Shown piece after piece: positions 17,503 through 21,743 of a DNA stretch of 64,000 nucleotides. The first letter of the stretch is position 1, and each line of letters starts with the position of its first letter. The translations under genes were made by a program, and so were the position numbers. Location: assembly GCF_030769565.1 (NCBI RefSeq), contig NZ_JAVCAP010000031.1, positions 1 through 64,000 on the forward strand. The letters run 5' to 3'. Origin of the DNA: Methylophilus aquaticus. GTDB taxonomy: Bacteria > Pseudomonadota > Gammaproteobacteria > Burkholderiales > Methylophilaceae. The notes under the pieces were generated by a model. It saw only the letters and a list, made by a program, of their open reading frames with translations, was not told the DNA's origin and did not search any database.

Positions 17503-18270
17503 ATGGCGAGAGATGCTTTGACCGACAAGGAACTATTACTCAAGAAAACCGCCCGCAGAAGGTTGGTGGGGGCGATTACCCTTGTAATTCTGATGTTGAT
17601 CATCCTGCCCTTTGTGCTTAAAGACCGAGCGGTAAATTCATCAGCTGATACGGTAAAAATAACTGTTGTCAACCGCGAGACTAATCATGAGCCCATTTTA
17701 GAGTTGCCTGAAGATGAAGTCTCGCTTGAGGCTGATGCCCCCGATTTATCACAACCCTCCAGCGCTGTCGCTGTGTCTGACGCAGAATCAGCTTCTGCTA
17801 CAAAAGAACCCTTAATCGAGCCGCTTGTGGCTAAGGCTGAACCCAAGGCTGAACCCAAGGCTGAACCCAAGGCTGAACCCAAGGCTGAACCCAAGGCTGA
17901 ACCCAAGGCTGAACCCAAGGCTGAACCCAAGGCTGAACCCAAGGCTGAACCCAAGGCTGAACCCAAGGCTGAACCCAAGGCTGAACCCAAGGCTGAAAAG
18001 CTTGGTATTAAAGAAGATAAACCTGTCTCCGATAAACAGTCAGGCAAGTTTTATGTGCAGTATGGCGTATTTTCTGACCCTAAAAATCTTGAAAGCCTCC
18101 GGACCAAGCTAAAACAGGCTGGATTTGATGCGAATACCGAACATGTGGATGGTGCTGGATTGAAATTACGCTTGCGCTCAAAAACTTATGCAACGCGTGC
18201 AGATGCTGCAAATGCTTTGAAAAAAATCCAGGCAGCTGGATTTAGTGGCATTGTTGCAGCCAAATCCTGA
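17503..18270 (+). CDS. dedD: DedD-like SPOR-domain cell division protein with repetitive linker
   Basis: A 255-residue bitopic protein: short cytoplasmic start, one membrane helix near 26-44 (LVGAITLVILMLIILPFVL), a long periplasmic linker, and a C-terminal SPOR domain (about 178-255, from GKFYVQYGVFSDPKNLESL to AAGFSGIVAAK) that binds denuded peptidoglycan at the septum. The linker holds 13 perfect copies of the four-residue unit KAEP, an extended positively and negatively charged spacer. The position between folC and cvpA matches E. coli dedD. The repeat is the odd feature: units are identical in DNA, implying recent expansion. Confidence 0.85.
   Translation: MARDALTDKELLLKKTARRRLVGAITLVILMLIILPFVLKDRAVNSSADTVKITVVNRETNHEPILELPEDEVSLEADAPDLSQPSSAVAVSDAESASATKEPLIEPLVAKAEPKAEPKAEPKAEPKAEPKAEPKAEPKAEPKAEPKAEPKAEPKAEPKAEPKAEKLGIKEDKPVSDKQSGKFYVQYGVFSDPKNLESLRTKLKQAGFDANTEHVDGAGLKLRLRSKTYATRADAANALKKIQAAGFSGIVAAKS
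17833..17988 (+). repeat. Coding minisatellite, 13 perfect copies of a 12-bp unit
   Basis: AAGGCTGAACCC is repeated 13 times without a single mismatch, then a degenerate unit AAGGCTGAAAAG closes the array. The unit length is a multiple of three, so copy changes keep the frame and only alter linker length. Confidence 0.97.
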
Positions 18271-18822: not shown

Positions 18823-20358
18823 ATGTGTGGAATTATCGGTATTGTAGGTAAGAATCCGGTTAACCAGTTGTTGTATGACGGCTTGCTGGTGTTACAACAT
18901 CGCGGGCAAGATGCCGCTGGCATCGTGACTTGCGATGGTAATACTTTCCACATGCATAAAAATAATGGACTGGTGAAAGATGTTTTCCATACCCGCCATA
19001 TGCGTAATCTGGTTGGCAATGTCGGTATTGCACATGTGCGTTACCCGACTGCCGGTTCTTCCAGTGCAGCTGAAGCGCAGCCGTTTTATGTAAACTCGCC
19101 GTTTGGCATCGTGCTGGGCCACAATGGCAATCTCACCAACTCTGAGCAGTTGAAGTCCGAAATGTTCCGGCAGGATCTACGTCACATCAATACCAGTTCT
19201 GACTCAGAAGTGCTGCTCAATGTGCTGGCACATGAAATTGAGCATACTTCCAAAAATGCATTGCTCAATAGCGATGTGGTGTTTGATGCCGTTGCCGCGG
19301 TGCACAAGCGCTGTAAAGGTGCTTATGCCGTGGTGGCGATGATTGCCAACTTTGGTATGCTGGCATTCCGTGACCCGCACGGCATTCGTCCATTGGTGAT
19401 TGGCAAGCAGGAAACGAATAAAGGCACTGAATACATTGTGGCCTCTGAGAGTGTGGCGCTGGATGTGTTGGGGTTTACCCTGTTGCGTGATGTAGAGCCT
19501 GGTGAAGCTGTCTTTATCGATATGGATGGTAATTTGTTCAGCCGCCAGTGTTCCGATAAATCCAAGCTCACTTCCTGTATTTTTGAATATGTCTACCTGG
19601 CGCGCCCTGACTCGGTGATTGATGGGGTGTCTGTTTACCAGACGCGCCTGGATATGGGCAGCTTGCTGGCAGAAAAAATCAAGCGCGAATGGGCAGACAA
19701 GCACATTGACGTGGTGATCCCGATTCCCGACACCAGTCGACCGAGTGCTTTGCAGTTGGGTATCGCACTGGGACTGGATTACCGAGAAGGCTTTATTAAA
19801 AACCGTTATATTGGCCGCACGTTTATCATGCCGGGCCAGGCTTTGCGTAAAAAATCTGTCCGTCAGAAGCTGAACCCGATTGGGATTGAGTTCAAAGGCA
19901 AAAATGTTTTGCTGGTCGATGATTCCATTGTGCGCGGAACGACTTCACAACAAATCGTCCAAATGGCCAGGGATGCAGGTGCCAATAAAGTCTATTTTGC
20001 CTCCGCGGCACCACCCGTGCGCTATCCAAATGTGTATGGCATTGATATGCCTAGTCGTGATGAGTTGCTGGCAACCAACCGCACGGATGAAGAAATCTGT
20101 GCTGAAATTGGTGCGGATGCGCTGATCTATCAGGATCTGGACGCATTGCGCGAAAGTATTGCCAAATCCAACCCGCACCTCACCGAGTTTGATTGCAGTT
20201 GTTTTGATGGTAAATATGTCACCGGGGATATCGACGCGGCTTATCTGAATCGCATTGAAACGGCGCGCAGCGATGCCAATAAAAAAGAGGTGCCGCCTAA
20301 CTCCACCACACAGCTGGATTTGAATTTGCTGTCGACGGATTTGGTGGGTATAGAGTAA
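18823..20358 (+). CDS. purF: Amidophosphoribosyltransferase
   Basis: PurF makes 5-phosphoribosylamine from PRPP and glutamine, the first step of purine synthesis. Cys2 (MCGIIGIVG) is the glutaminase nucleophile exposed after Met removal. The glutaminase landmark HRGQDAAGI and the PRPP-binding loop [16 protein letters not shown] are clear. 511 residues is full length. It is the last gene of the accD-folC-dedD-cvpA-purF run. A new promoter for metZ starts right after its stop. Confidence 0.97.
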
Positions 20359-20361
20359 GGC

Positions 20362-20390
20362 TTGACAGCGCTCAGTAAAAGGCGTTAAAT
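20362..20390 (+). promoter_or_regulatory. Sigma-70 promoter for the metZ leader
   Basis: A perfect -35 box TTGACA (20362-20367) is followed after 17 bp by TTAAAT (20385-20390, four of six consensus positions). Transcription would start near 20397, exactly where the riboswitch begins. It lies four bases after the purF stop codon. Confidence 0.65.
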
Positions 20391-20394
20391 CAAA

Positions 20395-20470
20395 TTGCGC
20401 TGATTTGAGTGGCCAAATTTAAACAAAGCCAAACTCAGCTTGCGGGCGCATAATAAATTCTGCTAAAGCG
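20395..20470 (+). ncRNA. SAM-II riboswitch aptamer upstream of metZ
   Basis: The conserved blocks of the SAM-II (metA motif) aptamer appear in order: UGCGC and UGAUUUGA at 20396-20408, CUUGC then the returning P1 arm GCGCA at 20446-20450, AUAAAU at 20453-20458, and GCUAAAG at 20462-20468. P1 pairs UGCGC with GCGCA. A variable hairpin (GAGTGGC with GCC-AA-ACTC, 20407-20436) fills the loop. SAM-II senses S-adenosylmethionine through an H-type pseudoknot and represses methionine genes. The downstream gene is metZ, the expected kind of target. Recognition is by motif, not by covariance search. Confidence 0.88.
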
Positions 20471-20477
20471 AGAGCCC

Positions 20478-20515
20478 AAAAACCCGTTTTAGCTTCGCGC
20501 TTAAACGGGTTTTTC
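20478..20515 (+). terminator. Intrinsic terminator, expression platform of the SAM-II riboswitch
   Basis: AAACCCGTTT-T-AGC pairs with GC...TT-A-AAACGGGTTT (one mismatch) and is followed by TTTTT. The left arm segment CGTTTTAGC (20485-20493) is complementary over 9 bp, with one G-U pair, to GCTAAAGCG (20462-20470) of the aptamer, so formation of terminator and aptamer-strand pairing are mutually exclusive. It may also end the purF transcript. Confidence 0.82.
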
Positions 20516-20555
20516 ATTATGGGCACCACAACGATATACGGGACATTGAAGATTT

Positions 20556-21743
20556 ATGGACAAGCAATACCATCTGGAAACATTGGCAGTGCGGGCGGGT
20601 ACGCTCACCACTGAATTTGGCGAAAACTCTGAGGCGCTGTTTCTCAACTCCAGTTTTCGCTTTAAAAATGCAGCGCAGGCAGCCGCCCGTTTTGGCGGGT
20701 CAGAGCCAGGCAATATTTATTCACGCTTTACCAATCCAACGGTCACCATGTTTCAGGCCAAACTGGCGGCGCTGGAAGGGGCCGAGCAATGCGTGGCGAC
20801 GGCCAGTGGTATGGCAGCTATTCTGGCTTGTGTGATGGGATTGTGCAGTGCTGGTGATCATGTGCTGGCTTCGCGCAGTATATTTGGTACCAGTGTGCAG
20901 CTGTTCAGTAATATTCTCAAGCGCTGGGGGCTCGAAGTGACGTTTGTCTCGCTTACCGATGTCAACGCCTGGCGGGCGGCGGTCAAAGCCAATACCAAGC
21001 TGTTTTTTGCTGAAACCCCTTCTAATCCACTGACCGAAGTTGGCGATATTGCCAAGCTGGCAGAGATTGCGCATGCCAACGGCGCACATCTGGCCATTGA
21101 TAACTGTTTTTGCACCCCGGCGCTGCAACAGCCCTTAAAGCTGGGCGCAGATATTATCATTCATTCGGCCACCAAATATATTGATGGCCAAGGCAGGGTG
21201 CTTGGCGGCGCAGTGTTAGGCAGCAAAACACTGATGGAGCCTGTGTATGGCTTTTTGCGGACAGCGGGCGTTACCATGAGTGCATTTAACGCCTGGGTGT
21301 TCGTGAAAGGGTTAGAAACCCTGCAGGTGCGCATGGAAGCGCATGCGGCGCGCGCCCTGGCACTTGCGCAGTGGCTGGAGCAGCAGCCACGTGTTGCGCG
21401 GGTGTATTACCCGGGGCTGGTGTCTCATCCGCAATATGCCCTGGCGCAACAGCAGCAACGCCTGGGCGGCGGCATTGTCACCTTTGAAGTCAGGCCGCAT
21501 GAGGGGCAAACCGGGCAGGAGGCTGCCTGGGAGCTGATTGATGCGACCCGTTTGATTTCGATTACGGCCAATCTGGGGGATGCCAAGTCCACCATCACCC
21601 ATCCGGCGACTACGACACATAGTCGCGTCACGCCTGAAGCGCGGGCTGAGGCGGGGATTAAAGATAATCTGGTACGCATTGCGGTTGGTCTGGAGCATGT
21701 GGAGGATTTGCAGGCCGATTTGGCCTTGTTGTCACGTGCATAG
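20556..21743 (+). CDS. metZ: O-succinylhomoserine sulfhydrylase
   Basis: MetZ is a PLP enzyme of the Cys/Met metabolism family that makes homocysteine from O-succinylhomoserine and sulfide. Residues PGNIYSRFTNPTV near 51-63, the PLP lysine Lys207 in HSATKYIDGQGR, and VRIAVGLEHVEDL near the end identify it. At 395 residues it has the usual length. It is a single gene behind its own promoter, SAM-II riboswitch and terminator, so SAM should shut it off. Other gamma-family enzymes (MetB, MetC, MetY) are less likely given the RVLGGAVLG and THSRVTPEARAEAGI segments typical of MetZ. Confidence 0.93.
   Translation: MDKQYHLETLAVRAGTLTTEFGENSEALFLNSSFRFKNAAQAAARFGGSEPGNIYSRFTNPTVTMFQAKLAALEGAEQCVATASGMAAILACVMGLCSAGDHVLASRSIFGTSVQLFSNILKRWGLEVTFVSLTDVNAWRAAVKANTKLFFAETPSNPLTEVGDIAKLAEIAHANGAHLAIDNCFCTPALQQPLKLGADIIIHSATKYIDGQGRVLGGAVLGSKTLMEPVYGFLRTAGVTMSAFNAWVFVKGLETLQVRMEAHAARALALAQWLEQQPRVARVYYPGLVSHPQYALAQQQQRLGGGIVTFEVRPHEGQTGQEAAWELIDATRLISITANLGDAKSTITHPATTTHSRVTPEARAEAGIKDNLVRIAVGLEHVEDLQADLALLSRA

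Follow-up and report, generated by a model that had tools for sequence, protein, structure and literature searches.

The gap between purF and metZ in Methylophilus aquaticus (Methylophilaceae), a methanol-consuming bacterium, raises the question of whether metZ is governed by a riboswitch and, if so, whether that switch acts on transcription or on translation. The window that we analyzed (64,000 nucleotides, positions 1 to 64,000 of contig NZ_JAVCAP010000031.1) carries both genes on the forward strand, purF at 18823-20358 and the controlled gene metZ, which encodes O-succinylhomoserine sulfhydrylase, at 20556-21743, and both identities are backed by NCBIfam equivalogs above cut-off (TIGR01134 at 543.6 bits, cut-off 350, for purF; NF006003 at 688.8 bits, cut-off 522, and TIGR01325 at 583.4 bits, cut-off 510, for metZ). 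Between them lie, in order, a TTGACA box, a SAM-II aptamer spanning 20393-20473, and a terminator at 20478-20514. Judging from sequence comparisons, we consider this leader to be, with a probability of roughly 87%, a SAM-II riboswitch that turns metZ off at the level of transcription. Elsewhere in the window, positions 17503-18270 encode a SPOR-like protein with a long (EPKA)n run, itself encoded by a tandem DNA repeat.

The promoter (20362-20390, forward strand) consists of the -35 box TTGACA at 20362-20367, a 17-nucleotide spacer, and a weak -10 box, TTAAAT, at 20385-20390, and the RNA is expected to start at about 20396-20398, which is the first base of the aptamer's P1 helix. This promoter is absent from the output of a simple sigma-70 consensus scan because the scan requires an A at the second position of the -10 box. 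Among relatives, 137 of 140 leaders have TTGAC upstream of P1, and in 111 it stands 34 nucleotides before P1 (shuffled mean of 5.85).

After the promoter, the core blocks UGAUUUGA, CUUGC, the returning P1 arm, AUAAAU, and GCUAAAG follow one another in order, and these blocks, like the TTGACA box and the terminator, are all present at the positions that the original prediction had given them. GAUUUG, CUUGC, AUAAAU, and GCUAAAG fall within 20402-20468, and the core is invariant in an alignment of 21 diverse relatives. P1 comprises six pairs between UGCGCU (20396-20401) and GGCGCA (20445-20450), with pairing in 98% of cells across 27 relatives and compensated changes in others (AGCGC/GCGCU or ACGC/GCGU). 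The GAUUUGA that follows the 5' arm of P1 (20402-20408), invariant in the same 21 relatives, would by homology with SAM-II and SAM-V structures (PMC6061858) form the third strand of the binding-site triplex. The P2 pseudoknot would join CUCAGCUUGC (20434-20443), within which CAGCUUGC is invariant in the alignment, to GCUAAAGCGAG (20462-20472), within which GCUAAAGCG is invariant in diverse relatives; the two strands are complementary except for a bulged A and an unpaired UA and, being almost invariant, are uninformative for covariation. Between P1 and the 3' strand of P2 lies the conserved AUAAAU linker (20453-20458), which in relatives is mostly AAAU or AAAC before GCUAAA.

The standard family model recognizes this aptamer poorly. 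When we searched 19900-20900 against Rfam, RF00521 matched in the right place, at 20387-20483, but its score of 21.2 bits (E 0.03) fell short of the gathering score of 36, such that the first check proposed for the aptamer was borne out in position and not in score. An Rfam scan at gathering level gave no match at the metZ leader, and an RF00521 search of the organism's own genome at E 0.001 found none because Rfam scores the metZ-leader copy low. The likely cause of this deficit is P1b, an accessory hairpin (20409-20434, GU-GGC ... GCC-AC) that sits in the P1 loop and is absent from the Rfam consensus. Across 27 relatives, compensatory changes affect both sides of P1b in 26 cells, compared with 3 to 8 in slid controls, and none of 500 shuffles reaches 26; the insert measures 15 to 20 nucleotides, and loop length ranges from 6 to 43 nucleotides among relatives. 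No match to the SAM-II_long_loops family (RF01726) was obtained in 19900-20900 at E up to 1, and minus-strand matches to RybB and Bp2_287 were rejected, as they do not reach the gathering scores of those families and correspond to the opposite strand of the terminator and aptamer.

A covariance model, R1, was based on 12 relatives, none of them from the window's genus. R1 matches 20393-20473 with 62.7 bits (E 2.8e-14) and finds this one site in the whole genome, in agreement with the predicted SAM-II aptamer upstream of metZ; it also matches elements that are Rfam positive, scoring them similarly to the window's copy. A member of the same family (G177) has the same core upstream of metZ without the long P1b and passes the Rfam cut-off at 36.9 bits, and elements with short loops exceed the RF00521 cut-off upstream of a verified metZ (L213, 43.9 bits) and of metX (L208 and L217, 52.5 and 43.1 bits). 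Weak second family-level matches (e.g., L154-L158 and contigs 14 and 42 of G000) were not recovered by R1 and are taken as chance. Two loci, L001 and L153 (G159), have an extra SAM-II element over the Rfam cut-off on small contigs, with a weaker second aptamer match nearby, for which assembly contamination is possible. By these sequence criteria, 20393-20473 is a SAM-II aptamer; its downstream gene is a methionine gene, and SAM is presumably its ligand.

The intrinsic terminator (20478-20514) is a hairpin ending in UUUUU, with a folding energy of -18.4 kcal/mol (z of -5.1). As had been predicted, GCTAAAGCG (20462-20470), the first nine bases of the P2 3' strand, is complementary at nine positions (one of them G-U) to CGTTTTAGC (20485-20493) at the left-arm tip of the terminator, so that these bases could double as the 5' strand of an antiterminator. 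An automatic rule for a terminator after GCUAAA was satisfied by 125 of 163 metZ leaders, and the full 9-bp antiterminator occurs in 106 of these 125 (relatives that are kin, whose counts do not equal independent events), compared with 2 of 384 control hairpins drawn from 20-kb stretches in the same genera; the other 19 retain only 3 to 6 bp in the same register. The comparison of metZ leaders upheld the antiterminator, whereas the near-invariant P2 strands gave no covariation signal either way. Among 84 distinct terminator hairpins, the tip TTTT(A/G)GC is present in 73 (0 of 143 controls), and its entropy is 0 to 0.9 bits, as opposed to 0.7 to 1.65 bits at the mirror positions of the right arm, where the positions facing the tip pair in just 58 to 75% of cases at positions 2 to 4. 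The sole frequent change in the left arm, A to G, retains pairing with the aptamer strand as G-U. This one-arm conservation fits an aptamer strand that holds the left arm, since a lone terminator would constrain both arms equally, and the capacity of the aptamer strand for a mutually exclusive antiterminator, retained among relatives, is well supported by these comparisons.

In the proposed switch, the RNA would begin roughly where P1 begins. Under SAM scarcity, the free P2 3' strand (GCUAAAGCG, 20462-20470) would pair with CGUUUUAGC (20485-20493) once the latter is made, delaying the terminator and allowing RNA polymerase to read into metZ; with SAM bound, the P2 pseudoknot would hold the GCUAAAGCG strand, the terminator at 20478-20514 would form, and transcription would stop after about 120 nucleotides. 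Step-wise minimum-energy folds give the antiterminator for chain ends 20492-20506 and the terminator from 20508 onward, and the terminator state is favored over the antiterminator state by about 9.5 kcal/mol at equilibrium, from which it follows that antitermination must be kinetic. Aptamer identity, terminator, and conserved alternative pairing are supported by the sequence comparisons; we infer the OFF direction, from the fact that P2 and the antiterminator share one strand, and likewise the kinetic competition. Against this reading, it has been argued that long SAM-II P2a helices may stand even without SAM (PMC6061858), which would leave little antiterminator. Overall, OFF-type terminator control with a 9-bp antiterminator, as originally envisaged, finds support when the leader is compared with those of about 160 relatives.

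The layout of promoter, SAM-II aptamer, and terminator is common to nearly all Methylophilaceae metZ leaders; the SAM-II core pattern was detected in 141 of the 163 that we retrieved. A GTDB-wide pattern combining the aptamer core with an antiterminator-competent terminator recovered 91 stretches, mostly from Methylophilaceae (Methylophilus, Methylotenera, Methylobacillus, and Methylovorus), the remainder belonging to a few other betaproteobacteria and some Desulfuromonadales, and 74 of 80 stretches examined lie within 400 nucleotides upstream of metZ. The same aptamer with a TTTTGGC or TTTTAGC terminator is present at L333, L366, and L368 (Pelovirga and other Desulfuromonadales) and at L373, which are outside the betaproteobacteria or are MAGs named so; at L333, L368, and L373, the first copy is followed by a second SAM-II-like segment.

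Within the family, several leaders depart from this layout. In six genomes (G150, G151, G153, G155, G180, and G035), the stretch preceding metZ yielded no SAM-II core, and the riboswitch appears to have been lost. Some members of g2, a genus of small genomes, are without TTTTAGC and instead have (U)AGCUG(U), which can pair with the (A)CAGCU(A) that adjoins the aptamer core; in six small genomes, one of which the automatic terminator rule missed, the antiterminator pairing appears to have shifted to these two segments. At loci L171-L185, also from small genomes of g2, the terminator is gone and SAM-II has changed to a translational form, with GCTAAACTGAGGA or GCTAAAAAGGA close to the ATG. In terminator-less members of this genus, GCUAAA is followed by a Shine-Dalgarno sequence near the ATG. 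Four loci upstream of metZ (L148-L151, from G019, G016, G017, and G029) appear to have a SAM-II copy with a terminator and then, shortly ahead of the metZ start, another aptamer-like segment, GGTGGATTTATACC..CTTGC..CACC..GCTAAACAGGA, that is apparently translational.

At the level of the order, GCAAGC, which is complementary to the P2 5' strand, occurs in 13 of 56 terminators after SAM-II (2 of 131 controls), and TTTAGC occurs in 10 of 56 (1 of 131 controls). An automated test of helix length for the second type of antiterminator was inflated by U-tract pairing and was dropped in favor of these motif counts, which suggest, less strongly than the family-level result, that two antiterminator designs may exist in the wider order. 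At loci L208-L277, the terminators downstream of SAM-II show enrichment of GCAAGC/AAGCTG, which could pair with the P2 5' strand CAGCTTGC.

SAM-II elements with terminators and OFF logic upstream of methionine genes are known (PMC1273637), and this is reported to be the usual arrangement in alpha- and betaproteobacteria (Corbino 2005, PMC1273637; Barrick and Breaker 2007, PMC2258182); the premise of the original prediction that SAM-II elements are mostly described as translational is mistaken, the majority being described as transcriptional (PMC6061858, PMC2258182, PMC1273637). The metZ leader resembles the terminator switches of RF00521 (SAM_alpha) in its core, in a promoter just before P1, in a terminator after P2, in its methionine gene, and in its presumed OFF logic but differs in its inserted, covarying P1b and in a score below the Rfam cut-off. 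In Sinorhizobium meliloti, the metZ SAM-II riboswitch/sRNA RZ yields a terminated RNA of about 100 nucleotides that is higher in SAM-rich medium (2022, PMC9373788); it too is a SAM-II element upstream of metZ with a terminator, although it belongs to another proteobacterial class, and the likeness considered here is one of arrangement. Tandem SAM-II elements with mixed outputs are also known (PMC9481103). SAM-II_long_loops elements (RF01726), listed for Bacteroidetes and marine samples (Weinberg 2010, PMC2864571), share the long loops but, as noted, do not match the metZ leader.

The closest published counterpart is the "metXZ" RNA element, which Leyn et al. (2014, PMC4239095) place in betaproteobacteria upstream of metXW or metZ, including three metZ genes of Methylophilales. 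There it has six conserved regions that form a pseudoknot and precede a terminator; region 3 has no partner, and an antiterminator is proposed, speculatively from regions 3 and 4, whereas in the present case the antiterminator partner is the P2 3' strand GCUAAAGCG. In that paper, metXZ is treated as new, is not recognized as SAM-II, and has no ligand assigned, the authors' Rfam scan having reported SAM_alpha in alphaproteobacteria only. Going by gene context, taxa, and the order of regions as given there, metXZ is almost certainly the same element as the SAM-II aptamer of the metZ leader. A literature search on SAM-II in Methylophilaceae and on a SAM riboswitch identity of metXZ turned up no further paper.

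An aptamer that controls translation, next to an unrelated and always active purF-metZ terminator, would have precedents: many genomes of genus g2 in the same family have translational SAM-II with GCUAAACUGAGGA or GCUAAAAAGGA near the ATG, and other betaproteobacteria carry GCUAAAGAGGU..AUG upstream of metX. In the window, however, P2 contains no Shine-Dalgarno sequence, and the metZ start codon lies 84 nucleotides downstream; furthermore, the left arm of the terminator is conserved alone and matches the aptamer strand, and an always-on terminator would silence metZ from its own promoter here. Translational control of metZ in this organism is thus very unlikely. That the terminator hairpin insulates metZ from purF, which lies directly upstream on the same strand, is plausible as an accompaniment to the switch. 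As a plain insulator that ends purF read-through, with an incidental 9-bp complementarity, it is extremely improbable, given the frequency of the match (106 of 125 relatives, all kin, against 2 of 384 control hairpins), its strand-asymmetric conservation, and the recurrence of the design in other species (74 of 80 pattern matches no more than 400 nucleotides upstream of metZ).

We also considered a genuine SAM-II-like fold whose ligand is a relative of SAM, because rare SAM riboswitch variants are reported to bind spermidine (PMC10853860) and because metXZ was published with no assigned ligand (PMC4239095). We attach little credence to this possibility: the core GAUUUGA, CUUGC, and GCUAAAG is the same as in elements over the Rfam cut-off and invariant in diverse relatives, and every gene checked is a metX or a metZ and belongs to the homocysteine branch. 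A SAM-responsive OFF switch of transcription is the reading that we retain.

Seen against the relatives, it is fairly probable that metXZ is a SAM-II riboswitch whose expression platform has turned over repeatedly: antitermination would use the P2 3' strand with the terminator left arm (TTTTAGC type) in Methylophilaceae metZ leaders and, seemingly, the P2 5' strand CAGCUUGC with GCAAGC(UG) in other betaproteobacteria, and would have given way to Shine-Dalgarno masking in streamlined relatives, with tandem terminator-plus-translational intermediates. The basic mechanism was already known; what is new is the link between metXZ and SAM-II and the definition of the antiterminator. The locus provides a clean example of how conservation of a single terminator arm exposes the antiterminator, and the recognition of P1b corrects a detection gap, in that the Rfam model misses SAM-II members with this insertion. 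For the family, the analysis supplies a likely ligand for a regulatory element that had been published without one, and the transcriptional, tandem, and translational versions before one gene make up a natural series for change in riboswitch output.
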